In this document: positions 45,515-63,383 of the stretch, in pieces
Layout: the number at the start of each line of letters is the position of its first letter
How positions within the stretch are numbered: the first letter of the stretch is position 1
DNA from: Lacinutrix sp. Bg11-31
Lineage (GTDB): Bacteria > Bacteroidota > Bacteroidia > Flavobacteriales > Flavobacteriaceae
Assembly (NCBI RefSeq): GCF_002831665.1
Contig: NZ_CP025118.1
Location: 558,001-622,000, forward strand
DNA: 64,000 bases
Direction: 5' to 3'
Made by a program: the position numbers and the translations under genes
Notes under the pieces: generated by a model
What the model saw: only the letters and a program-made list of their open reading frames with translations
Databases searched by the model: none
Told to the model about the DNA's origin: nothing

Positions 45515-45557
45515 TGATATTTATCATCTTTTAACCATTCATTTCCATCTAAATTTG
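45515..45557 (+). promoter_or_regulatory. hemN promoter: Fnr-like box TGATATTTATCA and -7 TAAATTTG
   Basis: Box 45515-45526; -7 at 45550-45557, an exact TAnnTTTG. Box centre to first -7 base is 29.5 bp, so the box would be at about -41.5 from a start near 45562. Confidence 0.8.
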
Positions 45558-45577
45558 CTTTAAAATAGTTTATAAAA

Positions 45578-46942
45578 ATGAATAATTCTCTAATAGCAAA
45601 ATACAACGTCGCAGGACCAAGATATACTAGTTATCCAACAGTTCCATATTGGGATAATGATTTGTTTTCCTTAAAATTATGGAAAGCATCGCTTAAAAAA
45701 AGCTTTGACGAGAGTAATGCTACAGATGGTGTAAGCTTATACATTCATCTTCCATTTTGCGAGAGTATGTGTACGTTTTGTGGTTGCCATAAACGCATAA
45801 CAAAAAACCATGAAGTTGAAGTGCCATATATCGAGTCTTTAATTCAAGAATTTAAACTTTACAAAGAGTTTCTTGGGAATACGCCAAATATTAAAGAGTT
45901 ACATATTGGAGGAGGAACACCAACTTTTTTTAAACCAGAAAATATTAAAACACTACTAAACTCCATAAACGCTATTGGGAAGTTTAGTACGGATTGCGAG
46001 TTAAGTTTCGAAGGTCACCCAAATAACACAACAGAAGAACATTTAAAAATGTTTGCCGACTATAATTTTAAGCGTGTAAGTTATGGTGTTCAAGATTATA
46101 ATTTAAAAGTACAAAAAGCAATAAATAGAATTCAGCCTTTCGAGAACGTAAAGCATGTAACAGATGCCTCAAGAGCACAAGGTTTTACATCTATTGGACA
46201 TGATATTATTTTTGGTTTACCGTTTCAAACAGTAGAAGATGTTGAGAATACTATTAATAAAACAATTACTTTAAAACCAGAGCGTATTGCATTTTACAGT
46301 TATGCACATGTGCCTTGGATTAAAGGAAACGGACAACGTGGTTATAACGATCAAGATTTGCCTACTGCAACTCAAAAACGTTTACAATACGAAAAAGGTA
46401 AAGAAATGTTGCTTGAAGCTGGTTATTTTGAAATAGGTATGGATCACTTTTCTTTACCAACAGATTCTCTTTACAAAGCGCACGAAAACCAAAAACTACA
46501 TCGTAATTTTATGGGCTATACTGTAACTAATACTAAAGTAATGATTGGTTTAGGCGCATCTGCAATTAGCGATAGTTGGTATGGTTTTGCACAAAACGAT
46601 AAAGGCATCGAAAGTTACAAAGCGCTTGTTAGCCAAGGTATAATTCCTGTTTTTAGAGGACATATTTTAAATGATGAAGATTTAATAATACGCAAACACA
46701 TACTTAACTTAATGTGTAAGTTCGAAACCTCTTGGGAAACCGAAGCATTAAAGTTTAATGAGCTTCCAGGTGTACTTATTAAATTAAAAGAACTAGAAAA
46801 CGATGGTTTAATAGAAATAGATTCTAAAAAAATACGTGTTACAGAAAAAGGACGTCCGTTTGTTAGAAACGTTTGCTTACCATTCGATAGACGTTTGCAA
46901 CGTAACAAACCAGAAACACAAGTATTTTCTATGACTATTTAA
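45578..46942 (+). CDS. hemN: Oxygen-independent coproporphyrinogen III oxidase (radical SAM)
   Basis: The 454-residue enzyme has the radical-SAM cluster motif in HLPFCESMCTFCGCHK (C61, C65, C68), LHIGGGTPTFF, FEGHPNNTT, and the C-terminal HemN region (RKHILNLMCKFE). It converts coproporphyrinogen III to protoporphyrinogen IX without O2, feeding haem synthesis under low oxygen. It has an Fnr-like box at the activating position, as expected for an anaerobically induced gene, and is convergent with the cco cluster that needs its haem. Confidence 0.95.
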   Translation: MNNSLIAKYNVAGPRYTSYPTVPYWDNDLFSLKLWKASLKKSFDESNATDGVSLYIHLPFCESMCTFCGCHKRITKNHEVEVPYIESLIQEFKLYKEFLGNTPNIKELHIGGGTPTFFKPENIKTLLNSINAIGKFSTDCELSFEGHPNNTTEEHLKMFADYNFKRVSYGVQDYNLKVQKAINRIQPFENVKHVTDASRAQGFTSIGHDIIFGLPFQTVEDVENTINKTITLKPERIAFYSYAHVPWIKGNGQRGYNDQDLPTATQKRLQYEKGKEMLLEAGYFEIGMDHFSLPTDSLYKAHENQKLHRNFMGYTVTNTKVMIGLGASAISDSWYGFAQNDKGIESYKALVSQGIIPVFRGHILNDEDLIIRKHILNLMCKFETSWETEALKFNELPGVLIKLKELENDGLIEIDSKKIRVTEKGRPFVRNVCLPFDRRLQRNKPETQVFSMTI

Positions 46943-46957
46943 ATAGTTGTAGAAGAG

Positions 46958-47005
46958 TGAAACAAAAAAAGGAAAGCCTATAAAGCTTTCCTTTTTTTTT
47001 GTTTC
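46958..47005. terminator. Bidirectional terminator between hemN and the cco cluster
   Basis: GGAAAGC-CTATAAA-GCTTTCC (46971-46991) extended by long A and T runs, with GAAAC/GTTTC at the outer ends. Confidence 0.85.
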
Positions 47006-47058
47006 AAATGTTTTAGCGATAAATATACTGTAGCTATTTAGGTAAATTTTAAAATTTG

Positions 47059-47223
47059 CTATAACTCAGTAGAAGTTTCATCGTTAGAAGTATCGCTTTT
47101 CTTTTTACCGCTTCTCGCCATATTATAGACAATAAGAGATAATACAAGGCAGACAAAAAGAAAAAAGCCAATAAAAACAGCTCCCATTGTCCAATTAACT
47201 ACAAGTATTATTAAACTTTCCAT
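47059..47223 (-). CDS. 54-residue membrane protein at the end of the cco cluster
   Basis: ATG 47223 opens MESLIILVVNWTMGAVFIGF and FLFVCLVLSLIVYNMARSGK, two hydrophobic segments, followed by a polar Lys/Ser/Thr tail ending in TAG at 47059. It begins 29 bp after the SafE-like gene on the same strand and is closed by a terminator, so it reads as the last gene of the oxidase cluster. No family recognised. It could be a small oxidase accessory subunit, which is inference. Confidence 0.55.
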   Translation of the reverse strand: MESLIILVVNWTMGAVFIGFFLFVCLVLSLIVYNMARSGKKKSDTSNDETSTEL

Positions 47224-47252
47224 TAGTGTTATATTTTTAAATTATTAATTTT

Positions 47253-47960
47253 TTAATGACAATTATATTGAGAATCTACCTGCTCTACAGTAACCATGTT
47301 AGAAGGCGATAAATAAGGAATCCCTAAGCCCAAACCGCGAATAATAAATAGCAAACCAACAACTACCACAAAGGCCGGAATTAGTTTTAAAACACGTTGT
47401 TTTACTGTTTTAGTAAGAAAATTACCAAGGTAAATAGCAGTCGTCATAAGTGGTACAGTTCCTAAACCAAATAAGGCCATGTACAAACTGCCTTCCCAAT
47501 AACTTCCAGTTGCTAAAGCACCAAAAATAGCCATGTAAACAAGTCCGCAAGGCAATAAACCATTAAGATAACCAATAGTAAAAAAAGTACTGGGTTTCTT
47601 TTTCTTTAAATTAGCTCCCATTTTACTTTTCACTTTACCAACAAGTCTGTAAATAGGTTTAGAGAAGTTATAGCTGTTAAATAATTTGGTAGGTATTAAT
47701 ATAGTAACAATCATTAAAACACCAATACCAATAGAGAGTTGTTGCTGTAAACCAAATAGATTTAAGCTTTTACCAACAGCACCAAAAATAAGACCTAAAA
47801 CGCTATACGTTAAAATACGCCCAGCATGATAGCTTAATAATTGTAGAATGCGTTTGGTTTTGTTTTCACGATCTAAAGGCAATAAAAAGGCAATAGGGCC
47901 ACACATGCCAACACAGTGGAAACTTCCTAATAAACCAAATATAATTGCCGAAATTAACAT
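47253..47960 (-). CDS. SafE/UreH-type membrane transporter of the cco cluster
   Basis: The 235-residue protein has six hydrophobic helices and the signature GLLGSFHCVGMCGPIAFLLP at the N terminus, then YHAGRILTYSVLGLIFG and GYLNGLLPCGLVYMAIFGAL. This family (sulfite exporter TauE/SafE or UreH-like) is usually found beside ccoGHIS and is thought to help metal handling, possibly copper, for the oxidase. Its ATG overlaps the ccoH stop by one base (TAATG). Confidence 0.82.
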   Translation of the reverse strand: MLISAIIFGLLGSFHCVGMCGPIAFLLPLDRENKTKRILQLLSYHAGRILTYSVLGLIFGAVGKSLNLFGLQQQLSIGIGVLMIVTILIPTKLFNSYNFSKPIYRLVGKVKSKMGANLKKKKPSTFFTIGYLNGLLPCGLVYMAIFGALATGSYWEGSLYMALFGLGTVPLMTTAIYLGNFLTKTVKQRVLKLIPAFVVVVGLLFIIRGLGLGIPYLSPSNMVTVEQVDSQYNCH

Positions 47961-48406
47961 TAATACGTTATCTGTTCTTTATATAAATATGGTGTGCCTT
48001 CGTACATAAAATCTATAGTAATGTTCCAACGACCGTCTAACATCTTATTGTCAGGTATGAGCAAATGTGAAGAAGTTAGATTTAACTCAAGGTTAAAATC
48101 TAAAGTTTCGTTAGACGGTCTATATAGGAACACTTTTCCTTTAATTTTTGATAGTTCAAGCTCCTTTGGAAACACCAATAGCCAACCATTATCTGTTCTT
48201 TTACTTACAAATTTTTCTTTTAAATTATTTGTGTTTGTTTCGGCATCAATCTCATTTTGATAGAGCATTTCCTTAGCATAATAATCTTCGGTAACTAAAT
48301 CATGACTAAAAGATTCTGTAGTAGTCATTAGGTATACAAAATATAATATAAAGCACATAAATGCAGCCATAACAACAACTATACTTTTTCCCCAATTCCA
48401 TTTCAT
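47960..48406 (-). CDS. ccoH: CcoH (FixH) family protein
   Basis: The 148-residue protein has an N-terminal membrane anchor (WGKSIVVVMAAFMCFILYFVYLM), then FSHDLVTEDYYAKEMLYQNEIDA, the diagnostic start of the FixH domain, and a periplasmic beta domain (GKVFLYRPSNETLDF, MLDGRWNITIDF). It is needed for assembly or stability of cbb3 oxidase. It is coupled to the SafE-like gene and separated from ccoG by a 148-bp gap holding an intergenic repeat. Confidence 0.88.
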   Translation of the reverse strand: MKWNWGKSIVVVMAAFMCFILYFVYLMTTTESFSHDLVTEDYYAKEMLYQNEIDAETNTNNLKEKFVSKRTDNGWLLVFPKELELSKIKGKVFLYRPSNETLDFNLELNLTSSHLLIPDNKMLDGRWNITIDFMYEGTPYLYKEQITY

Positions 48407-48430
48407 AACTCTTTTGTTTTATAATGTTTT

Positions 48431-48513
48431 GGCGTGACCACAAGGGTCAGGCTGTACGTTTCAATTCCTCGCTCGTGCCTCGCTGTGGGATTTCCACTGC
48501 CATCCTTCACGCG
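48431..48513. repeat. GC-richer intergenic element between ccoG and ccoH
   Basis: About 83 bp with clearly higher GC than its surroundings. It contains the hairpin GTGACC-ACAAG-GGTCAG and the segment GATTTCCACTGCCATCCTTC followed by ACGC. I recognise the latter as close to an intergenic repeat found in many Bacteroidetes genomes; this is from memory. Confidence 0.5.
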
Positions 48514-48553
48514 GGCATTTTTACTGTTTTAAGAGGCTCAACTTTGTTTTTGC

Positions 48554-49975
48554 TTACTTATAACTTCTTGGTCCTAAAAAAGCAGTTGTTGTGGTTTCAA
48601 TTAATTGCTCTCCACTATAAATACCAATTTCTACTCTAACTTTATCTTCTTTTAATGCGCTTGCATTTACTTCAACAAATAGAGTGCCTTCTGCAAGCCC
48701 TTGGCCATCTACTTTAAAACCTTCGTGAGACACTAATTTAACAGTTCCTTTATGCGATAATAGTTTAAAAGATATATTCTCAATATCATCAACCGTTTTA
48801 TTTATCAATTTAAACGTGTAAACATTACTAATAATATTATCAGCTTTGTGTTCGTATAATTGTCCAGGCAGCCTAAGAATAGTTGCTTCAACATCATTAC
48901 GTAAAAATAACATTCCAATAAGTACAGCTATTAAAATTCCTAAAACAGCAGTATAACCTTTTAAACGTGGTGTGAACTTGAACTTTTCTTCTTTCTCAAT
49001 TTCATCTTCACTTGTATATCTAATAAGCCCTTTTTGTAAGTTTACGCTCTCCATCATGTGGTCGCAAGCATCAATACAAGCAGTACAATTAACACATTCT
49101 AATTGCGTTCCATTTCTTATATCAATTCCAGTTGGGCAAACATGTACACATTGAAAACAATCTATGCAATCTCCTTTTCCTGTAGTTGGTCTGTCTTCAT
49201 TTTTCTTAAATTTAGCACGACCTGCTTCTTTTTCTCCACGCTTATGGTCGTAGGCAACAATAATAGATTTATTATCTAAAAGCACACCTTGTAATCGTCC
49301 GTAAGGACAAGCGATAATGCATACTTGCTCTCTAAACCAAGCGAATATAAAGTAGAAAACGCTGGTAAAAATAAGTAGAGAAATTAAAGTACTTACATGT
49401 TTAGAAGGCCCTTCTGTCATATAACGCATAAGTTGATCGCTACCAATAAGGTAAGCTAAAAATACATTTGCAATTAAAAAAGAAATTATAAAAAAGATAA
49501 TCCATTTAAGTACTCTCTTTTTTATTTTCTCGGCATTCCAAGGCATTTTATCTAAACGAATTTGCTTTCCTCTATCGCCATCTATCCAATATTCTATGCG
49601 TCTAAAAACCATTTCAAGGAAAATAGTTTGCGGACAAATCCACCCACAAAAAATACGTCCAAATGCAACAGTAAATAGAATAACGAACACCACACCAATA
49701 ATCATCATTATTACAAACAAATGAAAATCTTGTGGCCAAAAGGGAAATCCGAAAATATTAAAACGACGCTCTAATACATTGAACATCAAAAACTGATTCC
49801 CATTAATTTTTATAAAAGGAGCAGAGACCAAGAAAATAAGTAATGCATAGCTAACGTATTTGCGATACTCGTACCATTTTCCGTCTGGCTTCTTTGGAAA
49901 CACCCAAGCACGCTTACCTTCTTTGTTAAGCGTACCTATTGTGTCTCTAAAATTATCTTGACCTTGTTCTGCCAT
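48554..49975 (-). CDS. ccoG: CcoG (FixG/RdxA) cbb3 accessory polyferredoxin
   Basis: The 473-residue membrane protein has five to six hydrophobic helices, FGRIFCGWICPQTIFLEM and two [4Fe-4S] motifs (CIDCFQCVHVCP and CVNCTACIDACDHMM), then a C-terminal Ig-like periplasmic domain. CcoG reduces Cu2+ to Cu+ for the oxidase active site. It starts 38 bp after ccoP on the same strand. The length is typical. Confidence 0.95.
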   Translation of the reverse strand: MAEQGQDNFRDTIGTLNKEGKRAWVFPKKPDGKWYEYRKYVSYALLIFLVSAPFIKINGNQFLMFNVLERRFNIFGFPFWPQDFHLFVIMMIIGVVFVILFTVAFGRIFCGWICPQTIFLEMVFRRIEYWIDGDRGKQIRLDKMPWNAEKIKKRVLKWIIFFIISFLIANVFLAYLIGSDQLMRYMTEGPSKHVSTLISLLIFTSVFYFIFAWFREQVCIIACPYGRLQGVLLDNKSIIVAYDHKRGEKEAGRAKFKKNEDRPTTGKGDCIDCFQCVHVCPTGIDIRNGTQLECVNCTACIDACDHMMESVNLQKGLIRYTSEDEIEKEEKFKFTPRLKGYTAVLGILIAVLIGMLFLRNDVEATILRLPGQLYEHKADNIISNVYTFKLINKTVDDIENISFKLLSHKGTVKLVSHEGFKVDGQGLAEGTLFVEVNASALKEDKVRVEIGIYSGEQLIETTTTAFLGPRSYK

Positions 49976-50013
49976 TACTTGTTTTGTTTGTTTGCTTCCG
50001 CGAAAGCGAACAT

Positions 50014-50958
50014 TTATTTAATTTCAATAGTATTTACCGAAGTAGAATCTGTAGTTATAGTTTCTATAGTTTCTGCAGGAGCATTTGGATCGTTCCAAAT
50101 ATCGCCTTCAGGAGCTTTAGGCTCTGCAGGTGTTGTACCTTGAAAAGACAATACATAACTTGCTACTTGCGCCATTTCTGCTGGTTTTAAGTCCGATTTC
50201 CAAGAAATCATTCCTTTTCCAGCACGTCCACCTTCAGAAATAGTTTTAAATACATCTTTAATGCCACCACCTAAAATCCAGTGTTTATCTGTAAGGTTTG
50301 GTCCAATTCCACCACCTCCATCTGCTTTATGACAAGCGATACAATTTGTACCAAAAATATTTTGTCCAGCTTTTAAGTCTGACGCTTCTGTAAGTAATAC
50401 TACAGAATTAACATCTACTAAATCTTTAGCTGTTTTTTTCCATTCTGCAATATCAATTTTAGCTTGGGCTACATTCATTTCATATTCTTGATCTTGGTTG
50501 TAATCGCCTACAACTTCAAAACGAACCCAATACACAACAGCAAAAATAATAGTGAAGTAGAATAAGTATTTCCACCAAGGTGGTAAATCGTTATCTAATT
50601 CTTTAATACCATCGTAATCATGGTCTAAGATAATTTCGTGTTCTTGTTCAATAGCTTTAGAACCTAAAGATTTTGTGTAGACTTCTTGTATCCATTTAAA
50701 TTGGTTCTCTTTTCTTAATGCTTCTTTAGCTAAATAACTTGCTTGTTGCTCTTGGTTTAATGTTTTAAACAAAACATATCTTAAGGCTTCTACACAAATT
50801 TCAAAAGCCATAGCAAAAAACATTGCTGTACCTATAATTGCCCAAAATATGGGTTGGCTAAACATTGCCCATTCGTCTCCTGTGTAAACCCATTCCATTA
50901 ATATTATAGCTAGTATAAAAAAGAATAAGAGTCTTAATAATGATGCTGTACTTCTCAT
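50014..50958 (-). CDS. ccoP: cbb3 oxidase subunit CcoP, single-haem form
   Basis: The 314-residue protein has two N-terminal membrane helices (LLRLLFFFILAIILMEWVY and FWAIIGTAMFFAMAFEICV), the CcoP anchor segment LPPWWKYLFYFTIIFAVVYWV and one c-type haem site CIACHK with GPNLTDKHWILGGG and MISWKS for the axial methionine. Canonical CcoP has two CXXCH sites; only one is present here. It passes electrons to CcoO/CcoN. ATG 50958 lies 2 bp after the ccoQ stop. Confidence 0.93.
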   Translation of the reverse strand: MRSTASLLRLLFFFILAIILMEWVYTGDEWAMFSQPIFWAIIGTAMFFAMAFEICVEALRYVLFKTLNQEQQASYLAKEALRKENQFKWIQEVYTKSLGSKAIEQEHEIILDHDYDGIKELDNDLPPWWKYLFYFTIIFAVVYWVRFEVVGDYNQDQEYEMNVAQAKIDIAEWKKTAKDLVDVNSVVLLTEASDLKAGQNIFGTNCIACHKADGGGGIGPNLTDKHWILGGGIKDVFKTISEGGRAGKGMISWKSDLKPAEMAQVASYVLSFQGTTPAEPKAPEGDIWNDPNAPAETIETITTDSTSVNTIEIK

Positions 50959-50960
50959 AA

Positions 50961-51152
50961 TTACTCGTTATTGGTATTAATAGTATTGTCTTCTAAAGGT
51001 ATATTGCTAACCTTTGTTATATGTGCTTTTTTTGCAGTAAAAACCCAAAAAAATAAACCTGCAAAAAAGAAGAAGAATATTAAAAGAGATATAATTGGAT
51101 ATATTTCTACGCCTTCTATTTGTTCTAAATTTCCTTTTATAAATTTTAACAT
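50961..51152 (-). CDS. ccoQ: cbb3 oxidase small subunit CcoQ-like
   Basis: The 63-residue protein has one membrane helix (IISLLIFFFFFAGLFFWVF) followed by KKAHITKVSNIPLED, the layout of CcoQ/FixQ, which stabilises the oxidase. It sits exactly between ccoNO and ccoP, separated by 5 and 2 bp, the standard order. Sequence conservation in this family is low, so the call depends partly on position. Confidence 0.8.
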   Translation of the reverse strand: MLKFIKGNLEQIEGVEIYPIISLLIFFFFFAGLFFWVFTAKKAHITKVSNIPLEDNTINTNNE

Positions 51153-51157
51153 GGCTT

Positions 51158-53359
51158 CTAGTTTTGGTTACCCACAGAATCGTCTGCGTTTTTAATTTTT
51201 ATATCTGTCCCTAAGCGCTGTAAGTAAGCTATTACTGCAACTACTTCACGATTACGCATTTCTATAAAGTCTTCACCATTTTCTTTCGCGTATTTTTTAT
51301 CTGCTTCATACGTTTTAGCAAAGTCTGGATCGTTGTAAAGGTTTTTTTCAATTTGAGTACCTTGATCGTCCATCCATTCTTGAGCTGTTCCAATCTCTTC
51401 TTCTGTATATGGAACACCAAGAGTTACCATAGCTTCCATTTTTGTTTCGGTTAAACTTTTATCGAGTTCATTTTTTATAAACCATTTGTAAGATGGCATA
51501 ATAGAACCTTCAGAGACACTTTGCGGATCGTAAAAATGACTTAAATGCCAGTTATCACTATATTTACCACCTATTCGATGTAAATCTGGACCTGTACGTT
51601 TACTTCCCCAAAGAAATGGGTGATCGTAAACATATTCTCCAGCTTTAGAGTATTCTCCATAACGTTCTACTTCGTGTCTAAATGGTCGTACCATTTGAGA
51701 GTGACAACCAACACAACCTTCTCTTATGTAGATATCTCTACCTTCTAATTCTAAAGGAGTATATGGTTTAACACTAGATATTATTGGTATGTAGTCATCT
51801 ACCATTAGAGATGGTACAATTTGTACTGCTCCACCAATTAATATTGCAATTGTAGCGAAGATTGTAAGTTTTATTGGTCTTCTTTCTAACCAAGTGTGGT
51901 ATCCTTCTTTGTTAGTACGTTTTTTAGTTACTTTTTGTAGTGGTGCAGATTCTGCTAGTTCATCTGTTACTTTACTACCAGAACGCGCTGTCATAATAAC
52001 ATTAAACACACCAATTAAAGCACCAGTAATAAATAAGGTTCCTCCAATAGCACGCATCCAATACATTGGCATAATTTGAGTTACGGTTTCTAAGAAGTTA
52101 CCATAAGTTAATGTACCATCTGGATTAAATTGTTGCCACATAGACCATTGTACAAATCCTGCAACGTATAATGGTAGTGCATATAATATAATACCTAAAG
52201 TACCTATCCAAAAGTGAGCGTTTGCTAATGCTATAGACCAAAGTTTTGTTTTAAATAATCTTGGTACCATCCAATAAATCATACCAAAGGTTAAGAAACC
52301 ATTCCAAGCTAATGCACCAACGTGAACGTGAGCAATAATCCAATCTGTAAAATGCGCAACGGCATTAACGTTTTTTAATGAAAGCATAGGGCCTTCAAAA
52401 GTTGCCATACCATAACCTGTAATGGCTACAACCATAAATTTAAGAACTGGATCTGTACGTACTTTATCCCAAGCACCACGTAAGGTTAGTAAACCATTAA
52501 TCATTCCTCCCCAAGAAGGAGCTAATAACATAATAGAAAATGCAACACCTAAATTCTGTGCCCAATCTGGAAGTGCAGAATATAATAAGTGGTGTGGTCC
52601 TGCCCAAATGTAAATAAAGATTAAAGACCAAAAGTGAACGATAGATAATCTATAAGAGTAAACTGGTCTGTTTGCTGCTTTAGGAACAAAATAATACATT
52701 AACCCTAAAAATGGAGTAGTAAGGAAAAATGCTACTGCATTGTGCCCATACCACCATTGTACTAAAGCATCTTGAACACCTGCGTAAGCCGAATAACTTT
52801 TAAAAGCACTTACTGGTAATTCCATACTGTTTACAATATGAAGGACTGCAACAGTTACAAATGTTGCTAAATAGAACCAGATAGCAACATATAAATGACG
52901 CTGTCTTCTTTTTATCATTGTACCAATTAAGTTAGCACCAAATACAACCCAAATTACTGCAATAGCAATATCGAAAGGCCACTCTAATTCTGCATATTCT
53001 TTAGAGGTCGAGTAACCTAGTGGTAATGTTATAGCTGCACCAACAATAATGGCTTGCCATCCCCAAAAGTTAAGATTACTTAACCAATCTTTCCACATAC
53101 GTGCTTTTAATAAACGTTGTGAAGAGTAGTAAACACCTGCAAAAATGGCGTTACCAACAAAGGCGAAAATTACTGCATTGGTGTGTAATGGACGTAAACG
53201 ACCAAAACTTAACCAAGAGATCCCATCTGTAAGGTTAGGAAATAGAAACATAAAGGCTAATAGTAAGCCAATGCTCATTCCTACAATACCCCAAAGCAGT
53301 GTAGCGATGATAAATTTGCTGACGATTTTATTATCGTAATAAAACTTTTGTAATTCCAT
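51158..53359 (-). CDS. ccoNO: cbb3 cytochrome oxidase CcoN-CcoO fusion
   Basis: The 733-residue protein joins the catalytic subunit CcoN (residues about 1-480) with the mono-haem subunit CcoO (about 500-733). CcoN shows twelve or so helices and the haem/CuB histidine motifs WWYGHNAVAFFLT, AGPHHLLY and AHVHVGALAWNGF. CcoO shows a membrane anchor, CVGCHSQMVRPF for haem c, and YPHP-like VYDHPFLWGSKRTGPDL. It is the high-affinity terminal oxidase for low oxygen. The fusion is normal in Bacteroidetes. It starts 2 bp after ccoS. Confidence 0.96.
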   Translation of the reverse strand: MELQKFYYDNKIVSKFIIATLLWGIVGMSIGLLLAFMFLFPNLTDGISWLSFGRLRPLHTNAVIFAFVGNAIFAGVYYSSQRLLKARMWKDWLSNLNFWGWQAIIVGAAITLPLGYSTSKEYAELEWPFDIAIAVIWVVFGANLIGTMIKRRQRHLYVAIWFYLATFVTVAVLHIVNSMELPVSAFKSYSAYAGVQDALVQWWYGHNAVAFFLTTPFLGLMYYFVPKAANRPVYSYRLSIVHFWSLIFIYIWAGPHHLLYSALPDWAQNLGVAFSIMLLAPSWGGMINGLLTLRGAWDKVRTDPVLKFMVVAITGYGMATFEGPMLSLKNVNAVAHFTDWIIAHVHVGALAWNGFLTFGMIYWMVPRLFKTKLWSIALANAHFWIGTLGIILYALPLYVAGFVQWSMWQQFNPDGTLTYGNFLETVTQIMPMYWMRAIGGTLFITGALIGVFNVIMTARSGSKVTDELAESAPLQKVTKKRTNKEGYHTWLERRPIKLTIFATIAILIGGAVQIVPSLMVDDYIPIISSVKPYTPLELEGRDIYIREGCVGCHSQMVRPFRHEVERYGEYSKAGEYVYDHPFLWGSKRTGPDLHRIGGKYSDNWHLSHFYDPQSVSEGSIMPSYKWFIKNELDKSLTETKMEAMVTLGVPYTEEEIGTAQEWMDDQGTQIEKNLYNDPDFAKTYEADKKYAKENGEDFIEMRNREVVAVIAYLQRLGTDIKIKNADDSVGNQN

Positions 53360-53361
53360 AG

Positions 53362-53597: not shown

Positions 53598-53640
53598 TAA
53601 AATTACTGTTGTTGGTTCTTTAAAATGATGACATTTGTCA
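53598..53640 (-). promoter_or_regulatory. cco operon promoter: box TGACATTTGTCA and -7 TAATTTTA
   Basis: Box 53629-53640 (perfect TGAC/GTCA arms). The -7 element on the minus strand is at 53605-53598, one mismatch from TAnnTTTG. Centre to -7 first base is 29.5 bp. It lies just upstream of ccoS. Confidence 0.78.
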
Positions 53641-56383: not shown

Positions 56384-56426
56384 CAAAGGTCGTAGAATAG
56401 GGTTGTTTAAAATATGACTTTTATCA
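56384..56426 (-). promoter_or_regulatory. ccoI promoter: box TGACTTTTATCA and -7 GACCTTTG
   Basis: Box 56415-56426; -7 on the minus strand at 56391-56384, one mismatch. Centre to -7 first base is 29.5 bp. The same box is 59 bp upstream of a TATCTTTA element (56479-56486) for the divergent fnr gene, a different spacing. Confidence 0.75.
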
Positions 56427-56507: not shown

Positions 56508-57197
56508 ATGCATGATCGTTGTGAGAATTGTATAATACGAGAATTAAATTCACTTAAAGCCTTGAAAAAGGATGAGTTGAAACGAATTTCGGACAGTAAA
56601 GTATCTAAAACCATTAAAAAAGGTGAGGTTATTTTTGCTGAAGGAGAGAAGTTAAACGGTGTTTTTTGTGTGCGTAATGGTGTTTCAAAATTGTCGAAAA
56701 TGAGTGACAATGGAAAGGACCAAATAGTAAAAATTGCATCACGAGGTGAGATTTTAGGACAGCGTTCTGTAATTACAGACGAAAAGACTAATTTAAGTGC
56801 AGTTGCGCTTAACGATATGGAAGTGTGTTATATCCCAAAGCAACACCTTCAAGATAGTTTAAGCAGTAATGTAGAATTTACTAAGGCTGTTTTATTAAAT
56901 ATGGCTAACGATTTAAAATTTGCTGATAACGTTATTGTAAATATGGCACAGAAAACGGTGAAACAACGTGTTGCCGAAACTATAAAATACTTAGAAGATA
57001 ATTTTGGAATAGACTGTGATGGTTATATTGCTGTAACACTTACACGAGAAGATATTGCTAATATTGTAGGTACAGCTAAAGAGGCTTGTATACGAACATT
57101 ATCTTCTTTTAAAAAAGAAAAACTAATTTCTACAGACGGAAAGCGCATAAAAATTGAAGATAAAAAAGCCCTCTATCGTTTAATAGAAGGCTTATAA
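56508..57197 (+). CDS. Crp/Fnr family regulator with Fnr-like cysteines
   Basis: The 229-residue protein has a cyclic-nucleotide-like sensor domain, a long dimer helix (MANDLKFADNVIVNMAQKTV) and a C-terminal winged helix-turn-helix (VTLTREDIANIVGTAKEACIR). Cysteines: C5 and C8 (RCENC), C54 and C107. C107 (MEVCYIP) aligns with E. coli Fnr C122, and C5/C8 with C20/C23, but the position of C29 holds Asn, so C54 may be the fourth ligand. It therefore may sense O2 or redox through an Fe-S cluster. The recognition helix keeps the Glu and Arg that read TGA. It is divergent from ccoI and is the best candidate to bind the boxes of this block. Confidence 0.88.
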   Translation: MHDRCENCIIRELNSLKALKKDELKRISDSKVSKTIKKGEVIFAEGEKLNGVFCVRNGVSKLSKMSDNGKDQIVKIASRGEILGQRSVITDEKTNLSAVALNDMEVCYIPKQHLQDSLSSNVEFTKAVLLNMANDLKFADNVIVNMAQKTVKQRVAETIKYLEDNFGIDCDGYIAVTLTREDIANIVGTAKEACIRTLSSFKKEKLISTDGKRIKIEDKKALYRLIEGL

Positions 57198-57215: not shown

Positions 57216-58043
57216 TTATATTTTTACTGTAAGTACTGGAAGTTTTGAGTGGTTTACAACATCTTCACTTATACTACCAGAGAAAAAATGTGCTAATCCT
57301 TTTCTACCATGTGTAGGGATACCAATAATATCTGCCTTTACTCTTTTTGCATAATTAAAGATTCCTTTTTCTACAGAATAGTCTGAATATATTGCGATAT
57401 CTTCTGGTAGAATAGTACTATCCTCATTAAGGTGCACTAAAAAATTAGTGATGCGTTGCTCTATTTCGTTTGTACTTAAATAAGATTCTGTTGGGAGATT
57501 TACATATAGTAATTTTACTTCTATATCTAATGCTTTAAATAATGCAGTTACTTTATTAAAGACTTTTAAGCTTTCTAATTTATAATCTGAAGCAAATACA
57601 GCTTTAGATGCTGTAAAGTTATGAGCATCTTTAATTACTAAAACTGGCACAGAAGCAGTTCTAACAACTTTTTCGGTATTAGAGCCAACAAAAACTTCAC
57701 TTAAACCACTGCTTCCATGAGAACCCATTACAATAAGATATGCATCGTGTTCTTTTGCTACATCGTCAATTTCGCTAAATACCTTATAATTTTTAACGGT
57801 TTGATGTATAGTAATACCTTCTAAATAGTCTTTATCTAAAAACTCAGCAAAACGTTTTTGAGCAAGTTTTAATAAAAAGAGACCTTCCATAGAGTCTTCT
57901 TCCTTAGTAATTACAGCATCACTAAGACCTAGCATGTGTACAGCAACAATTTCTGCATTTTGTTTTTTTGCTATTTGAGAGGCTGCTTTTAAAGCATTCT
58001 CTGAGTATTCAGAGAAATCTACGGGAACTAGTATTTTTTTCAT
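57216..58043 (-). CDS. Universal stress protein, two tandem Usp domains
   Basis: The 275-residue protein has two UspA domains. The first starts MKKILVPVDFSEYSENALKA and has the ATP-binding loop VMGSHGSSGLSEVFVGSNTEKV; the second, about residues 150-275, has GIPTHGRKGLAHFFSGSISEDV. Both loops keep the G-x2-G-x9-G(S/T) pattern, so both may bind ATP. Its promoter has a perfect Fnr-like palindrome shared with the divergent 66-residue ORF, so it is likely induced by low oxygen. It is convergent with the fnr gene. Confidence 0.92.
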   Translation of the reverse strand: MKKILVPVDFSEYSENALKAASQIAKKQNAEIVAVHMLGLSDAVITKEEDSMEGLFLLKLAQKRFAEFLDKDYLEGITIHQTVKNYKVFSEIDDVAKEHDAYLIVMGSHGSSGLSEVFVGSNTEKVVRTASVPVLVIKDAHNFTASKAVFASDYKLESLKVFNKVTALFKALDIEVKLLYVNLPTESYLSTNEIEQRITNFLVHLNEDSTILPEDIAIYSDYSVEKGIFNYAKRVKADIIGIPTHGRKGLAHFFSGSISEDVVNHSKLPVLTVKI

Positions 58044-58071: not shown

Positions 58072-58145
58072 CAAAGGTAAGATTAGAATTATTTTCTTAT
58101 AGTGACAAAAGTCATCCTTTAAGAGCTTTTTTAATTTTACGTTTA
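58072..58145. promoter_or_regulatory. Divergent promoters sharing the box TGACAAAAGTCA
   Basis: Box 58103-58114. Leftward -7 TACCTTTG (58079-58072, exact) serves usp; rightward -7 TACGTTTA (58138-58145, one mismatch) serves the ORF at 58164. Both first bases are exactly 29.5 bp from the box centre, so one palindrome can activate both directions. Confidence 0.8.
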
Positions 58146-58163: not shown

Positions 58164-58364
58164 ATGAAAGCGATTGTTATATCCAAAAACGCAAAAGAAT
58201 ACACATTTATAAAAGATTGTATTGCCAATACTAAGGGTGTTTCGAATCTAGAAGTAGATATTATAAACAATAAATTTATTTTCGATTTTTCTACGCATAA
58301 TATAATAGAAGGTTTACGTGAAAAGTTGATAGCTTTTGGTTTTGTTGTGGAATTTATTTATTAA
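58164..58364 (+). CDS. 66-residue protein with HMA-like pattern, Fnr-box controlled
   Basis: The sequence MKAIVISKNAKEYTFIKDCI, VSNLEVDIINNKFIFDFS and IIEGLREKLIAFGFVVEFIY has the beta-alpha-beta-beta-alpha-beta order of a heavy-metal-associated domain but lacks the CXXC metal loop. Length and order support a real gene, and so does the well-placed promoter shared with usp. No family recognised. Confidence 0.6.
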   Translation: MKAIVISKNAKEYTFIKDCIANTKGVSNLEVDIINNKFIFDFSTHNIIEGLREKLIAFGFVVEFIY

Positions 58365-58431: not shown

Positions 58432-58474
58432 TGATTTATATCATTTATAGAAATTACATTCAGCATTATATTTG
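58432..58474 (+). promoter_or_regulatory. mla operon promoter: box TGATTTATATCA and -7 TATATTTG
   Basis: Box 58432-58443; -7 58467-58474, an exact TAnnTTTG. Centre to -7 first base is 29.5 bp. The predicted start near 58480 leaves a short leader before the TTG start codon at 58496. Confidence 0.82.
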
Positions 58475-58495: not shown

Positions 58496-59278
58496 TTGAT
58501 AGCGACTCGTTCCATAAAAGAAAAAACAAAGGTTTTTATTAATGAAATAGGCGATATTACTTATTTCGCTATTCGTTTTTTTAAAGAATTATTGACTAAG
58601 CCTTTTGAATGGAAAGAGCTTGTTAGGCAGTGCTATAATATTGGAAATCGTTCATTATTATTAGTTAGCGTAACAGGATTTATTTTAGGTTTAGTATTTA
58701 CATTACAGTCCAGACCTACATTAATGGAGTTTGGAGCAGAGTCTTGGATGCCTTCTATGGTAAGTATTTCTATTATTAGAGAAATAGGACCAGTAATTAT
58801 TGCACTTATTTGTGCGGGTCGTATTGGTTCAAGTATAGGAGCAGAACTAGGTTCTATGCGTGTTACAGAACAAATTGATGCTATGGAAGTATCTGGCACA
58901 AACCCATTTAAATATCTAGTAGTTACCAGGATTTTAGCAACTACATTAATGTTACCGTTACTAATTATAATAGGAGATGCTATTGCTTTATTTGGCTCTG
59001 CAATTATTGAAAATTTAAAAGGGGAAGTATCTTATCTGTTATATTTTAATAAAGTATTTGATGCACTTCAATTTAGCGATATTATTCCTGCAACAATAAA
59101 ATCATTCTTTTTTGGATTTGCTATTGGTTTAATAGGTTGCTACAAAGGTTATAATTGCTCTAAAGGGACTGTTGGTGTTGGAGAAGCATCTAACACAGCT
59201 GTAGTATACTCATCAATGCTGTTATTTATAATCGATTTTATTGCTGTATTTATTACAGATATATTCTTTGAAATTTAA
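58496..59278 (+). CDS. mlaE: MlaE-family ABC transporter permease
   Basis: The 260-residue membrane protein has about six helices and the MlaE pattern: GNRSLLLVSVTGFILGLVFTLQS (pieces), EIGPVIIALICAGRIGSSIGAELGSM, EQIDAMEVSGTNPFKYLVV and GCYKGYNCSKGTVGVGEA. With MlaF and MlaD it moves phospholipids between the membranes. The start is TTG 58496; no ATG fits. Its stop overlaps the mlaF ATG (TAATG). The operon has an Fnr-like promoter. Confidence 0.9.
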   Translation: MIATRSIKEKTKVFINEIGDITYFAIRFFKELLTKPFEWKELVRQCYNIGNRSLLLVSVTGFILGLVFTLQSRPTLMEFGAESWMPSMVSISIIREIGPVIIALICAGRIGSSIGAELGSMRVTEQIDAMEVSGTNPFKYLVVTRILATTLMLPLLIIIGDAIALFGSAIIENLKGEVSYLLYFNKVFDALQFSDIIPATIKSFFFGFAIGLIGCYKGYNCSKGTVGVGEASNTAVVYSSMLLFIIDFIAVFITDIFFEI

Positions 59279-60030
59279 TGAAGAAAAAACAACACATACA
59301 ACCAGTTTTGGAAATTAAAAACTTAAATAAAAGTTTTGGTAATAATCATGTGCTTAAAGGTTTTAATTTAAAATTATACGAAGGTGAGAATTTGGTAATT
59401 ATGGGAAAATCTGGTTCAGGAAAATCCGTAATGATAAAATGTTTAGTGGGCTTAATGGCCGCAGATAGTGGGAGTATTAAAATTCATGATTATGAAATAG
59501 CATCATTAGGAAGAAAAGAATTAGATGTTTTAAGAACCGAAATAGGCTTTCTATTTCAAGGTAGTGCGTTGTACGATTCTATGACTGTACGTGAGAATCT
59601 TGAGTTTCCTTTACGAAGGCACGTTGATGAATTTAAAAAAGATAAAGATACAGATGTATTAGTAAAAGAAGCACTTGAAAATGTAGGATTAGCTAATGCT
59701 ATAGATTTAATGCCATCAGAATTATCTGGTGGTATGCAACGTCGAGTGGCTTTGGCTAGAGCACTTATTTTAAAGCCTAAAATTATTTTGTATGATGAAC
59801 CAACTACTGGGTTAGATCCAATAACTGCTAAAGAAATAATTCAATTAATGCGAACTATACAAAAACAATATAAAACGTCATCACTCATTATAACTCATGA
59901 TGTTGATTGTGCTCGTGTTATTTCTAATAGGATGATTTTATTGGTTGATGGCACAAATTATGTTGAGGGTACTTTTGATGAATTATCAAAATCTAAAGAT
60001 CCTCAAGTGCAAGCATTTTTTAAAAATTAA
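59278..60030 (+). CDS. mlaF: MlaF-family ABC transporter ATPase
   Basis: The 250-residue protein has Walker A MGKSGSGKSVM (about residues 43-50), the ABC signature ELSGGMQRRVALARAL, Walker B ILYDEPTTGLD and the switch His in ITHDVDCA. It powers the MlaE/MlaD lipid transporter. It starts at the base shared with the mlaE stop and is followed 5 bp later by the MCE protein gene. Confidence 0.94.
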   Translation: MKKKQHIQPVLEIKNLNKSFGNNHVLKGFNLKLYEGENLVIMGKSGSGKSVMIKCLVGLMAADSGSIKIHDYEIASLGRKELDVLRTEIGFLFQGSALYDSMTVRENLEFPLRRHVDEFKKDKDTDVLVKEALENVGLANAIDLMPSELSGGMQRRVALARALILKPKIILYDEPTTGLDPITAKEIIQLMRTIQKQYKTSSLIITHDVDCARVISNRMILLVDGTNYVEGTFDELSKSKDPQVQAFFKN

Positions 60031-60035
60031 AGATT

Positions 60036-61034
60036 ATGAAACAAACAATATCTCAAAAAATAAAAGTTGGTACATTTGTAATTCTTGGCACAATTATTTT
60101 AGTAGCAGCGTTATATTTTATTGGAAATAAGCAACATATATTTAGTAAAAACATTAAAGTTTACAGTGTTTTTCAGAATGTAAATGGTTTACAATTGGGA
60201 AATAATGTACGCTATTCTGGGATCAATATAGGTACTGTTAGCCAAATAGAAATGATAAACAATGCACAAATTGTGGTGCAAATGTTAGTAGAAGAGAAAA
60301 CAGGAGCATTTATTAAAAAAGATGCTATTGCAACTATTGGTTCAGATGGATTAGTTGGTAGCATGGTTGTTAATATTATTCCAGGAAAAAAAAACTTAGC
60401 TGTTATTATCTCTGGGGATTCAATTGCATCTTATAGTAAAATTGGAGCAGACGATATGCTATCTACCTTAAATGTAACGAACGAAAATGCCGCACTTTTA
60501 ACGTCTGATTTATTAAAAATTACCACTAAAATTTTAGATGGCGAGGGAGTTTTAGGAGCATTAATTACAGATTCATTACTTACAAAAGATATAAAAGAAA
60601 CACTCTATAATTTAAAACAAACAACTAAAGGCACAGATCAAGCAGCTGTAAAATTAAATAAACTATTATCTAAAATTAATTTTGAAGATAGTGCAGCTGG
60701 TGTTTTACTAAACGATACTATAGCAGGTAATCAAGTTAAAAAGGTGTTTAATAATTTAGAAGAATCTAGTAAATCTATTTTAGAAATCACTAAAACTTTA
60801 GATGAAATGGTTTTAGAAATAAAACAAAAAGAAAGCACTTTTAATTATCTAACTAAGGACGAAGAGCTTCCAAAAATTATAGACTCAACAATGTTAAATA
60901 TTAAAGAAGCTTCAGAAAAATTAAATGAAAACATGGAAGCTTTAAAACATAATTTTTTCTTTAAAGGTTACTTTAAAAAACAAGAGCGATTAGAAAAAAA
61001 AGAGGCTAAAAAAAATCAAAATAATGAAAATTGA
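60036..61034 (+). CDS. mlaD: MlaD/MCE domain protein
   Basis: The 332-residue protein has one N-terminal membrane anchor (KVGTFVILGTIILVAALYFIG) and an MCE domain at about 37-125 (VYSVFQNVNGLQLGNNVRYSGINIG in pieces, VNIIPGKK). The C-terminal part is a long helical, charged region. MCE proteins form the hexameric ring that carries lipid to the transporter. Its last 11 bp overlap the start of the next ORF. Confidence 0.9.
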   Translation: MKQTISQKIKVGTFVILGTIILVAALYFIGNKQHIFSKNIKVYSVFQNVNGLQLGNNVRYSGINIGTVSQIEMINNAQIVVQMLVEEKTGAFIKKDAIATIGSDGLVGSMVVNIIPGKKNLAVIISGDSIASYSKIGADDMLSTLNVTNENAALLTSDLLKITTKILDGEGVLGALITDSLLTKDIKETLYNLKQTTKGTDQAAVKLNKLLSKINFEDSAAGVLLNDTIAGNQVKKVFNNLEESSKSILEITKTLDEMVLEIKQKESTFNYLTKDEELPKIIDSTMLNIKEASEKLNENMEALKHNFFFKGYFKKQERLEKKEAKKNQNNEN

Positions 61035-61515
61035 ACACTTGCAAGAACGGGTTTTAGACTATAAAACATCTATTGAAACTGTTGTAGAAAAGAAAATACA
61101 ATGGAGTAAGGTTACAAAACCATTATTATTAAAAACGCTCAAAACAATAGTTAAAAAATATGCTATTGGCTGGAAAGTACAAGAGCTAAATTGGATACAT
61201 AATAACGAAGCTGTAAATATTACTTTCGATTCTTTTCCAGAAGCATTAATAGATTGTACCAATCGTATTCCAGCTTATCAATTTATTTCTGGTGCTGCAT
61301 TAGTTTATTCTCAAACCTATAGTGGAGACGTATTTATATTTGTGCTCTTTCCAGATATTAATGAAATTAATTATGAAGATAATATTGTTGAGTTTGTAAC
61401 TCTTAATCCCTTAGAGATTTCAGAAAAATTAATAGTTGAAAACGTTGATCAATTTTTAAAAGAAATGATAAAATGGGAGTTACCTAGTAAAAAGACAAAA
61501 TTAGGTTATAGCTAA
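61024..61515 (+). CDS. Unknown protein closing the mla operon
   Basis: The 163-residue protein (MKIEHLQERVLDYKTSIETV, AIGWKVQELNWIHNNEAVNI, FLFPDINEINYED-like FVLFPDINEINYED, FLKEMIKWELPSK) has mixed helix and strand and no signal peptide. I do not recognise a family. It overlaps mlaD by 11 bp and is convergent with the patatin gene 3 bp away, so it belongs to the mla transcript. It may be a cytoplasmic partner of the transporter. Confidence 0.6.
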   Translation: MKIEHLQERVLDYKTSIETVVEKKIQWSKVTKPLLLKTLKTIVKKYAIGWKVQELNWIHNNEAVNITFDSFPEALIDCTNRIPAYQFISGAALVYSQTYSGDVFIFVLFPDINEINYEDNIVEFVTLNPLEISEKLIVENVDQFLKEMIKWELPSKKTKLGYS

Positions 61516-61518
61516 TAT

Positions 61519-62286
61519 TTAATCTATTAATTCACGTTTATTTTTTTGAAGAACTTTTATAGCTTCTTCGTATCCAATATTAAAAATAGCATCTATATTT
61601 TTTATACTAAATAGCCCATATTCTTTAAGTTTATCTGGATAAACCACCAAATCGCATAGATTAAATTTTGACATAGATTGATTGTTAAAACTAATATTAT
61701 AAGCACGATTTAAAACTTGATAAGAGTGCTTTAAATCTTTAGTTGCAACATCTTGTATGGGATTAACATAAACGCCAATAATTTTTGAACACTCTTTTTG
61801 TAGAGGTTCTACTGGAAAATTATTTAAAATACCACCATCTATGTATATACTATCCTTCATTAAAACGGGAGAGAAAATTCCGGGTACTGCAGATGAAGCT
61901 AAAATAGGCTTTATAAGTTCGCCAGAATTAAATGTTTCTAAATTTGCAGTTAATAAATTGGTTGTACTAATATATAATTTGCGTTTTAGTGTGTTAAAAT
62001 CATCTTGAGTAAAAAAAGGTTTTAAATCTTTATAAAATTTAGAGGTATCAATAAATCCAGGTTTATTATTTGCATATTTTTTATAATTAAATATTGGTAC
62101 ATTTTTAAAAAATTGTAGAATCTCCTGCCATGAATGTCCAGCAGCATATAAACTACCTACAATAGCACCTGCACTTGTTCCAGAAACATGAGAAACAGTA
62201 ATATTATATTCTTCTAATGCTTTTAATACACCTATATGTGCGACACCTCTAATTCCACCACCAGATAAAACTAATCCTACATTCAT
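61519..62286 (-). CDS. Patatin-like phospholipase
   Basis: The 255-residue protein has the oxyanion loop SGGGIRGVAH (residues 8-17), the nucleophile motif GTSAG (S38) and the catalytic Asp in DGGILNNFPVEPL. All parts of the Ser-Asp dyad are present, so it should hydrolyse lipids. There is no signal peptide, which points to a cytoplasmic or membrane-associated enzyme. It is convergent with the mla operon and both have Fnr-like promoters, which suggests a shared role in membrane lipid change under low oxygen. Confidence 0.9.
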   Translation of the reverse strand: MNVGLVLSGGGIRGVAHIGVLKALEEYNITVSHVSGTSAGAIVGSLYAAGHSWQEILQFFKNVPIFNYKKYANNKPGFIDTSKFYKDLKPFFTQDDFNTLKRKLYISTTNLLTANLETFNSGELIKPILASSAVPGIFSPVLMKDSIYIDGGILNNFPVEPLQKECSKIIGVYVNPIQDVATKDLKHSYQVLNRAYNISFNNQSMSKFNLCDLVVYPDKLKEYGLFSIKNIDAIFNIGYEEAIKVLQKNKRELID

Positions 62287-62301: not shown

Positions 62302-62344
62302 TAAAAGTAGTAGAGTTGTAACTTAAAAAAAATGACAAGTATCA
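62302..62344 (-). promoter_or_regulatory. Patatin promoter: box TGACAAGTATCA and -7 TACTTTTA
   Basis: Box 62333-62344; -7 on the minus strand at 62309-62302, one mismatch. Centre to -7 first base is 29.5 bp. Confidence 0.75.
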
Positions 62345-62373
62345 CATATTAATTAAATAAAAATTTCAAAAAC

Positions 62374-62416
62374 TGATATTTGTCATATTTTAAAACATCA
62401 ATCTATACTAATTTAG
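62374..62416 (+). promoter_or_regulatory. Promoter of sRNA unit 1: box TGATATTTGTCA and -7 TAATTTAG
   Basis: Box 62374-62385; -7 at 62409-62416, one mismatch. Centre to -7 first base is 29.5 bp. Predicted start near 62422, in a region with no protein gene. Confidence 0.65.
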
Positions 62417-62460
62417 TCCTGTAAGTTAAATCAAAGAGTATTAAATATATTCTAAAAAAA

Positions 62461-62493: not shown

Positions 62494-62531
62494 AAATTTT
62501 TTCTGCATTGGTAATCTGCAGAAAATAATCT

Positions 62532-62649
62532 TTATTATTTATCAAACCTATTAGTTAATAGTTGATCTTAAAATTGTGTTTGATAATAATAAAGGCGCTA
62601 TTAATCAATGAAGAAAAACAGGAGTAATTTTTATTGCTTCTGTTTTTTT
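62532..62649 (+). ncRNA. Candidate small RNA unit 1 (118 nt), paralogue of the unit at 63443
   Basis: This 118-nt segment and the one at 63443-63560 are about nine-tenths identical by eye, with conserved blocks TATTTATCAAACCTATTAG and CGCTATTAATCAATGAA. Each ends in an intrinsic terminator (here ACAGGAGTAAT / ATTGCTTCTGT plus T run). A stem position is G-U here and A-U in the other copy, so pairing is kept. There is no ORF. It lies downstream of an Fnr-like promoter (62374-62416), although another terminator intervenes, so it could have its own start or depend on readthrough. Confidence 0.6.
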
Positions 62650-62745
62650 ATTTTAATAGTATTCGTTTTCAAACTAGAAAAGATTAATGTAAAATATACT
62701 TGAGAAATCAAAAATTATAATTTATAATATAAATTTATAATTAAA

Positions 62746-62779
62746 AAAACCGTCTAAACTTTTAAAGCTAGACGGTTTT
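62746..62779 (-). terminator. Terminator of the CBS-domain gene
   Basis: AAAACCGTCTA / TAGACGGTTTT, an 11-bp stem with a 12-base loop, 20 bp after the stop at 62799, with an A run on the plus strand. Confidence 0.8.
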
Positions 62780-62798
62780 TATTTCAACAATAATAGCA

Positions 62799-63218
62799 CT
62801 AAAATTGTTCTATTAAATAGTTTATTAAATCTGTAGTTGTTACAATACCTACTAATTTCTTATTGTCAACAACTGGTAATGCATGAAATTCTTTTTTAGC
62901 TAATATCTCTGCCACTTCTTTAATAGTTGTATTTGTATTTACGCTTATTAAATTTTTTGCCATAACCTGCTCAATAGTAAACATGTTATAAACTACTGTG
63001 TCAATTTCTTGCTCTTCTTCGAAAGCAGAATCTGCAAAACTTATGCGTAATAAATCTGTGAAACTTAACATGCCAATTATAGATTCTCCAGAAACTACAG
63101 GAATATGGCGAATATTATTTTTTTTGAATAATTCTTCAGCTGTTTCTAAATTATCTGTGTGGTTAAGTGTAATAACATCTTTGGTCATTATAGCTGATAC
63201 TGGTGTTCTTTTCTTCAT
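62799..63218 (-). CDS. CBS-domain pair protein
   Basis: The 139-residue protein is two CBS domains: VSAIMTKDVITLNHTDNLETAE and IRHIPVVSGESIIGMLSFTDLL in the first, VMAKNLISVNTNTTIKEVAEIL and FHALPVVDNKKLVGIVTTTDLI in the second. Stand-alone CBS pairs bind adenine nucleotides and regulate other proteins; the partner is unknown. It has an Fnr-like promoter and a terminator of its own, and lies between the two sRNA units. Confidence 0.9.
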   Translation of the reverse strand: MKKRTPVSAIMTKDVITLNHTDNLETAEELFKKNNIRHIPVVSGESIIGMLSFTDLLRISFADSAFEEEQEIDTVVYNMFTIEQVMAKNLISVNTNTTIKEVAEILAKKEFHALPVVDNKKLVGIVTTTDLINYLIEQF

Positions 63219-63244
63219 AATTATTTAAGTTTTAAATTCTACAA

Positions 63245-63287
63245 TAAAGATAGGTTTAACACTTAAAAATTAATATGACAATAATCA
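63245..63287 (-). promoter_or_regulatory. CBS gene promoter: box TGACAATAATCA and -7 TATCTTTA
   Basis: Box 63276-63287; -7 on the minus strand at 63252-63245, one mismatch. Centre to -7 first base is 29.5 bp. Confidence 0.75.
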
Positions 63288-63340
63288 TATTTAGAAAATA
63301 AAATAGAAGTTTTTCTTAAATTAAAAATTGAGCACATTAC

Positions 63341-63383
63341 TGATATTTATCATAGTTTTAATTGATAATAGGCATTACTTTTA
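63341..63383 (+). promoter_or_regulatory. Promoter of sRNA unit 2: box TGATATTTATCA and -7 TACTTTTA
   Basis: Box 63341-63352, identical to the hemN box; -7 at 63376-63383, one mismatch. Centre to -7 first base is 29.5 bp. Predicted start near 63389, giving a transcript of about 170 nt to the terminator at 63560. Confidence 0.72.

Follow-up and report, generated by a model that had tools for sequence, protein, structure and literature searches.

A 64,000-nucleotide stretch of the genome of the marine flavobacterium Lacinutrix sp. Bg11-31 (the window; G000:C1:558001-622000, G000 being the organism's own genome) carries a series of short palindromes in front of hemN, cytochrome oxidase (cco), universal stress protein (usp) and other genes, which raises the question of whether these boxes are the operators of a single regulon and which protein would read them. 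We consider it highly probable that they are class II operators for activators of the Crp/Fnr family, at least two of which probably share this type of operator. The exact box, TGAYNNNNRTCA, occurs nine times in the window, always within positions 45515-63352, compared with a mean of 3.2 and a maximum of 8 in 100 dinucleotide shuffles of the same DNA. The original prediction, made from the letters of the window, described ten promoters with identical geometry in one 18-kb block, and all ten (45515+, 53629-, 56415-, 58103+, 58103-, 58432+, 62333-, 62374+, 63276- and 63341+) do have 23 bp between the box and the -7 element, a spacing termed N23 below. Ten of the 18 box sides in the block carry a -7-like element (at most one mismatch) at N23; the other 60 spacings in the range 0-60 have a mean of 0.23 and a maximum of two such sides. 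The predicted tally of four exact and six one-mismatch -7 elements has to be corrected to three (45515+, 58103- and 58432+) and seven when scored against TANNTTTG, with five of the seven deviating solely by a final A. The block was chosen because of its pattern, and the genome-wide and family-wide counts are independent of that choice.

Genome-wide enrichment of the box-to-promoter distance had been named at the outset as one result on which the prediction would stand or fall, and the prediction survives it. When the gap between box and TANNTTTR was allowed to vary from 8 to 38 bp, 26 of the 50 matches in the genome fell at N23 and the remaining 24 were scattered across 30 spacings. A search at the fixed N23 spacing returned 27 exact sites and none for the reversed pattern, the difference of one arising from the site at genome position 616103+, which had entered the variable search under a shorter gap. 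Extending the count to 21 genomes of the Flavobacteriaceae gave 375 N23 sites, 71 for N24 and N25 together and 17 for the reversed N23 pattern, with N23 ahead in 21 of 21 genomes. TANNTTTR is frequent at the 31% G+C of this genome, so that the spacing might be read as a coincidence of AT-rich sequence; every spacing control counts against this explanation, and with both the same boxes at other spacings and the reversed pattern opposing it, we regard it as refuted, its residual probability being vanishingly small. This geometry is genuine, of large extent and found across the family, and it is consistent with class II activation. Chance accounts for about one N23 site in ten in the family (35.5 per control spacing versus 375), and the 43-bp signature makes regulons readable from sequence. 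Two repeats affect the raw counts. In Lacinutrix, TGATGAAGATCA recurs 18 times at 405-base steps in G000:C1:1222901-1229797, a tandem repeat that is perhaps a gene for a repetitive protein and that inflates the raw genome count of 149 boxes. In several contigs of G113, at least seven matches at N24/N25 share TGATTGAAATCATCCTTTTT together with a stretch resembling GGAGTGGACTCA or AGAGTGGACTCA; they probably belong to a repeat, which would raise the N24/N25 control count in that genome.

In Escherichia coli promoters of class II that depend on CRP or FNR, the activator dimer has its centre at -41.5 and adjoins the core promoter. The promoters described here are alike in the -41.5 centre beside the core promoter, and differ in that the core is the Bacteroidota -7 box TANNTTTR, not the -10 box TATAAT, and in the outer bases of the box. 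The class II position, as originally proposed, is supported by the sigma-A promoters of Flavobacterium psychrophilum, which according to their mapping study have TAnnTTTG at -12 to -5 (PMC9723704); because the first T of the -7 element lies 29.5 bp from the box centre, that centre falls at -41.5, the start sites in Lacinutrix being predictions from the F. psychrophilum map. The operator itself has the form [AC]TGAY-N4-RTCAT. The base before the box (position 0) is mostly A or C, and T in 0% of island boxes (see below) and 5% of those in relatives. Towards the promoter, the box is directly followed by T at 24 of 25 island sides and at 82 of 85 exact sites in relatives, and beyond this T comes a T-rich tract where a -33 element would lie. 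At the opposite flank of these island boxes, T occupies the corresponding position in 11 of 25 cases (Fisher p 0.0001, the two sides of one box not being independent). The FNR site is TTGAT-N4-ATCAA; these preferences at the outer bases mean that its outer T/A pair is absent here.

In the mechanism that we propose, a dimer of the Crp/Fnr family would bind the palindrome at -41.5, adjacent to the position of a -33 element, and would recruit the Bacteroidota housekeeping polymerase, which would read TANNTTTR at -12 to -5. The geometry is observed, and from it we infer activation. At least two activators probably share the operator type, namely an FNR-like protein encoded at 56508 and a fusion of a response regulator to Crp (RR-Crp) that is linked to a PAS kinase.

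The arrangement originally placed within the 18-kb block is present there, and it also extends past the end of the window to genome position 651908, giving 24 boxes in about 48 kb. An N23 element (at most one mismatch to TANNTTTR) accompanies 23 of the 24, in 25 directions; the sole box without one, at 630367, lies within a dehydrogenase-like open reading frame (ORF). As part of the same highly probable explanation, the block would be the left portion of a 48-kb low-oxygen and energy-stress island. Beyond the window this island encodes mscS, hpf, many usp, a DnaJ-like protein, deoC, the PAS kinase, the RR-Crp fusion, an MBL-fold protein, and nirK-like and norCB-like genes; the kinase, fusion, mscS and hpf were assigned by Pfam and the other names by sequence recognition. 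The island has N23 sites in front of hemN, cco, ccoI, usp genes, a CBS gene and a row of mscS, hpf and usp, as well as the DnaJ-like gene, the nirK-like gene (followed by the norCB-like genes), Mla and patatin genes and two paralogous short RNA units. Outside the island there are seven N23 sites, with an ORF start 20-28 nt past the -7 element in six and 103 nt past it in the seventh; the genes include a cytochrome c-like lipoprotein and a ferredoxin-reductase-like ORF, both named by recognition. A dense series of at least 14 N23 sites, several resembling TGACCTARGTCATT, surrounds an RR-Crp gene at G106:C80:287279-320599, so that such islands recur in other genera. The features of the block are as follows, in window positions:

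45515..45526, + strand: hemN promoter box; -7 element TAAATTTG at 45550-45557, predicted transcription start 45562, ORF start 20 nt past the -7 element.
45578..46942, + strand: hemN-type gene (ORF; name from the original prediction and sequence recognition).
47253..53577, - strand: cco (cbb3 oxidase) row, presumably one operon, of ORFs that we take by sequence recognition, with no family scan, to be ccoS, a ccoN/O fusion, ccoQ-like, ccoP, ccoG, ccoH-like and TauE/SafE-like genes.
53629..53640, - strand: cco operon promoter box; -7 element TAATTTTA at 53605-53598, predicted transcription start 53593.
53914..56322, - strand: ORF that we take to be a ccoI-type copper ATPase gene.
56415..56426, - strand: ccoI promoter box; -7 element GACCTTTG at 56391-56384, its first base not T.
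56508..57197, + strand: FNR-like Crp-family regulator (Pfam cNMP_binding and HTH_Crp_2; conserved C5, C8, C54 and C107).
57216..58043, - strand: universal stress protein gene with two Usp stretches (PF00582).
58103..58114, both strands: shared box of two divergent N23 promoters; usp -7 element TACCTTTG at 58079-58072 (-), orf66 -7 element TACGTTTA at 58138-58145 (+).
58164..58364, + strand: orf66, a 66-residue ORF with no Pfam family match.
58432..58443, + strand: mlaE promoter box; -7 element TATATTTG at 58467-58474.
58496..61515, + strand: mlaE, mlaF and mlaD-type genes and orf163 (ORFs; Mla names from the original prediction and sequence recognition; no Pfam family for orf163 in the Pfam scan).
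61519..62286, - strand: patatin-like phospholipase gene (PF01734).
62333..62344, - strand: patatin promoter box; -7 element TACTTTTA at 62309-62302.
62374..62385, + strand: RNA unit 1 box; -7 element TAATTTAG at 62409-62416, predicted transcription start 62421.
62528..62650, + strand: RNA core 1, with a terminator-like hairpin at 62612-62649.
62799..63218, - strand: gene for a protein with two CBS domains (PF00571).
63276..63287, - strand: CBS gene promoter box; -7 element TATCTTTA at 63252-63245.
63341..63352, + strand: box of RNA unit 2 and the mscS leader; -7 element TACTTTTA at 63376-63383, predicted transcription start 63388, next ORF 215 nt past the -7 element.
63440..63560, + strand: RNA core 2, with a terminator-like hairpin at 63525-63557.
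63599..64000, + strand, leaving the window (genome positions 621599-622501): mscS-type channel gene (PF00924).

Scanning named genomes with the Fnr protein yielded 38 loci from genomes titled Flavobacteriaceae or from genera that we take to be members; the closest are from Lacinutrix, with 92, 86 and 83% identity. These loci contain 122 N23 sites, of which 85 are exact and 37 have one mismatch. An ORF starts within 60 nt of the -7 element at 79 of the 85 exact sites, compared with 251 of 776 other TANNTTTR elements sampled from these loci, and within 120 nt at 84 of 85, the last lying at 131 nt. Conserved targets include homologs of ccoS (in many of the 38 loci), ccoI, usp and orf66. The single box shared by usp and orf66, with promoters in both directions, is found in several species (e.g., L059, L060 and L063), and the orf66 promoter at this shared box is kept in several genera even though orf66 has no Pfam match. 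An N23 element lies upstream of the ccoI homolog in 26 of 30 loci. The first base of the ccoI -7 element is not T in 25 of these 26 relatives, as in the window, and AGGTATA then follows in 16 of 26. The hemN homologs of G074 and G126 (57 and 62% identity) have the same N23 site, as does a cbs homolog (55%) in G074. The same arrangement in other genera supports membership in the proposed regulon for hemN, cco, ccoI, usp, orf66 and the CBS gene, and that of mlaE and patatin is suggested by the Lacinutrix genome. A sub-threshold match to the Flavo-1 RNA (34.1 bits versus a cut-off of 42) was also seen at 48441-48521 (-), between two genes of the cco row.

The Crp/Fnr protein encoded at 56508, originally named as the activator, consists of a cNMP-binding domain (PF00027) and a Crp HTH domain (PF13545), and its Foldseek matches agree with a Crp fold (AlphaFold model with mean pLDDT 80.1 and pTM 0.55). 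Its nearest solved relatives are 2gau from Porphyromonas gingivalis and Aliivibrio fischeri FNR. The former is nearest by sequence (1.3e-29) and first by Foldseek E-value, its sequence alignment begins at residue 18, leaving the N-terminal CxxC unmatched, and its title names no function. The cysteines that hold the FNR cluster we take to be Cys20, Cys23, Cys29 and Cys122. Alignment with A. fischeri FNR (5e44/5cvr) places C5, C8 and C107 on Cys20, Cys23 and Cys122, and the Glu and Arg of the recognition helix are kept. Unlike FNR, the Lacinutrix protein has Asn14 in place of Cys29, an additional conserved Cys54, and Ile195 in place of Ser212. Three of the four FNR cysteines are therefore present and Asn14 is invariant in 28 sequences, while C5, C8, C54 and C107 are kept in 38 of 38 rows (the window and 37 loci, the partial L096 being left out). 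The protein is likely an iron-sulphur (Fe-S) oxygen sensor, putatively with a relocated ligand.

The second candidate is encoded in the same island, 29 kb beyond the 56508 gene, where the RR-Crp fusion (PF00072, PF00027 and PF13545) adjoins the PAS kinase (PF13426, PF00512 and PF02518). The FNR-like protein alone might activate all promoters, with the fusion acting elsewhere. Its gene adjoins the cco genes, and genomes with Fnr that lack a full-length fusion, such as G126, keep N23 sites before hemN, ccoS and usp. We nevertheless consider this unlikely, since G074 and G116, two draft genomes that lack an Fnr ortholog, the fusion being what the Fnr query matches best, have 8 and 10 N23 sites, compared with 1 and 2 for N24 and N25 together. 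The G074 sites include those before hemN, ccoS, the cbs gene and, following the fusion, a usp gene, and no fnr-like gene is found in the 16 kb around its cco genes; those of G116 lie before three usp-type genes, the gene after mscS and others. The occurrence of N23 sites in both fusion-only and Fnr-only genomes suggests that both proteins probably use the same kind of site. The 56508 protein thus remains a candidate, and its naming as the activator was incomplete, as it is probably not the only one.

Conversely, the RR-Crp system or another Crp paralog could be the main user of the sites, with oxygen not the main signal. In G116 (C2, fusion gene at 364987-366024, sites at 361059-375134) and in G106 (C80), N23 sites surround the fusion gene, five matches to the Fnr query occur in G000, and genomes that also carry the fusion have more N23 sites. 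The identity threshold was 46% for calling an Fnr ortholog and 39%, over the full length, for calling a fusion. Among the 21 family genomes, those with both have 11-48 sites (n=10), those with Fnr only 5-23 (n=8) and those with the fusion only 8, 10 and 16 (n=3). The eight genomes with Fnr and no full-length fusion still having 5-23 sites, and the cbb3 and heme genes being oxygen-limitation genes in F. psychrophilum (PMC9723704), this explanation is also improbable, to about the same degree as the preceding one. The F. psychrophilum study resembles our case both in its TAnnTTTG element and in the rise of cbb3 and heme genes under oxygen limitation. Returning to the preferred reading of at least two activators on one operator type, we infer oxygen as the signal and a division of targets between the two regulators. 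A more specific version of it, in which a cysteine-rearranged FNR and a phosphorylated RR-Crp would read one operator type throughout the family, always equally far from the divergent Bacteroidota promoter, merging oxygen and kinase signals at the same box, with Cys54 as the relocated fourth Fe-S ligand, is offered tentatively and has somewhat less than an even chance of being correct.

Several points weigh against the reading with two activators or against details of it. The 56508 protein has no equivalent of FNR Cys29. The difference in site counts between genomes with both regulators and those with Fnr only (two-sided Mann-Whitney 0.002) ignores phylogeny, with lineage and niche differing in an uncontrolled way. 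The class assignments are imperfect, as G097 (16 sites) is classed as fusion-only despite an Fnr relative at 36% identity, and in G153 the match to Fnr contains one TAA. Some of the counted sites may be due to chance, for example part of those in G126, because just 4 of 12 sites there have the T that follows the box, compared with 9 of 10 in G116 and 7 of 8 in G074. A third activator is possible, G000 having five matches to the Fnr query. No N23 site precedes an mlaE or patatin homolog in any of the 38 named loci; likewise, a 17-kb stretch of G116 has three N23 sites, none directly before its mlaEFD genes.

Promoters of the Bacteroidota do not follow the E. coli model, and to our knowledge the binding positions of few activators have been mapped on them. 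The signature described here offers a straightforward way to read gene control in bacteria that have received little study, predicts that Crp-type class II activation outlived a change of the core promoter, and names a rearranged FNR and a second activator candidate. Our literature search, with subscription journals and supplements outside its range, did not turn up an account of such an operator geometry in Flavobacteriaceae. The terms FNR, Crp and palindrom* are absent from the main text of the F. psychrophilum study (PMC9723704), and another report applies a MalR motif to a metagenome-assembled genome of the Flavobacteriales (PMC8510549).

Outside the family, 72 N23 sites were counted in 16 genomes of other orders of the class (reversed control 7) and 53 in 89 genomes of other classes, 56 of which had none (reversed control 10). 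Within the order, group f5 gave 113 N23 sites versus 76.5 per control spacing (19 genomes) and group f16, with 20 small genomes, none of which appears among the listed Fnr matches, gave 14 versus 7.5, and N23-to-control ratios below 2 are not to be read as signal. In the other orders and classes the excess over the reversed pattern is small, and we make no claim outside the family, because the reversed pattern is the only control there and in the family each control spacing gives about twice the reversed count.

The two short RNA units were originally described as small RNAs. Both lie behind N23 promoters, as proposed, and unit 2 doubles as the leader of the mscS-like gene. Their shared 120-nt core is 89% identical over 122 columns and ends in a hairpin with a T run. 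For unit 1, the + strand up to 63599 offers a single ORF of at least 60 residues, a mechanical ORF that lies opposite the CBS gene. An earlier hairpin with a T run, read from the sequence and not called by the hairpin scan, lies near 62453-62503, and the first product of this unit may be about 80 nt long. In unit 2 the hairpin stops short of the mscS start codon (63599, which is 211 nt from the predicted transcription start); it may be an attenuator, or a free RNA may end there. The DosR dormancy regulon, whose regulator is of another family, responds to hypoxia and includes usp, CBS and hibernation genes, and E. coli FnrS is a short RNA driven by FNR; the proposed regulon of the island would resemble both in its usp, CBS and hibernation genes and its short RNAs. 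A relation of the FnrS type was examined through Rfam only, where neither unit had a match above the gathering score and only sub-threshold matches to plastid 3' untranslated regions appeared at the hairpins. A DNA search with unit 2 found matches at E <= 0.001 in 10 of 60 genomes, one being G000 itself and the other nine covering only 23-93 bases, and the whole core was matched by the two window copies only. A covariance model of the two copies matched their own genome and none of the 12 others among 13 genomes of the genus. Given these short DNA matches and the restriction of the model to its own genome, we reject a conserved small RNA family within the genomes searched. Differences between the two copies in the first stem are not compensatory and so lend no support from covariation, and none of the 85 exact sites in relatives was an orphan promoter that could serve as an RNA source. 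The exact 3' motif of the cores was found in two of six genomes: GCTATTAATCAAT and a hairpin follow a small, secreted-looking ORF at G000:C1:3494855 and at G004:C16:8892. Since this motif and hairpin also follow small genes elsewhere, the 3' part of the RNA cores may be a terminator module.

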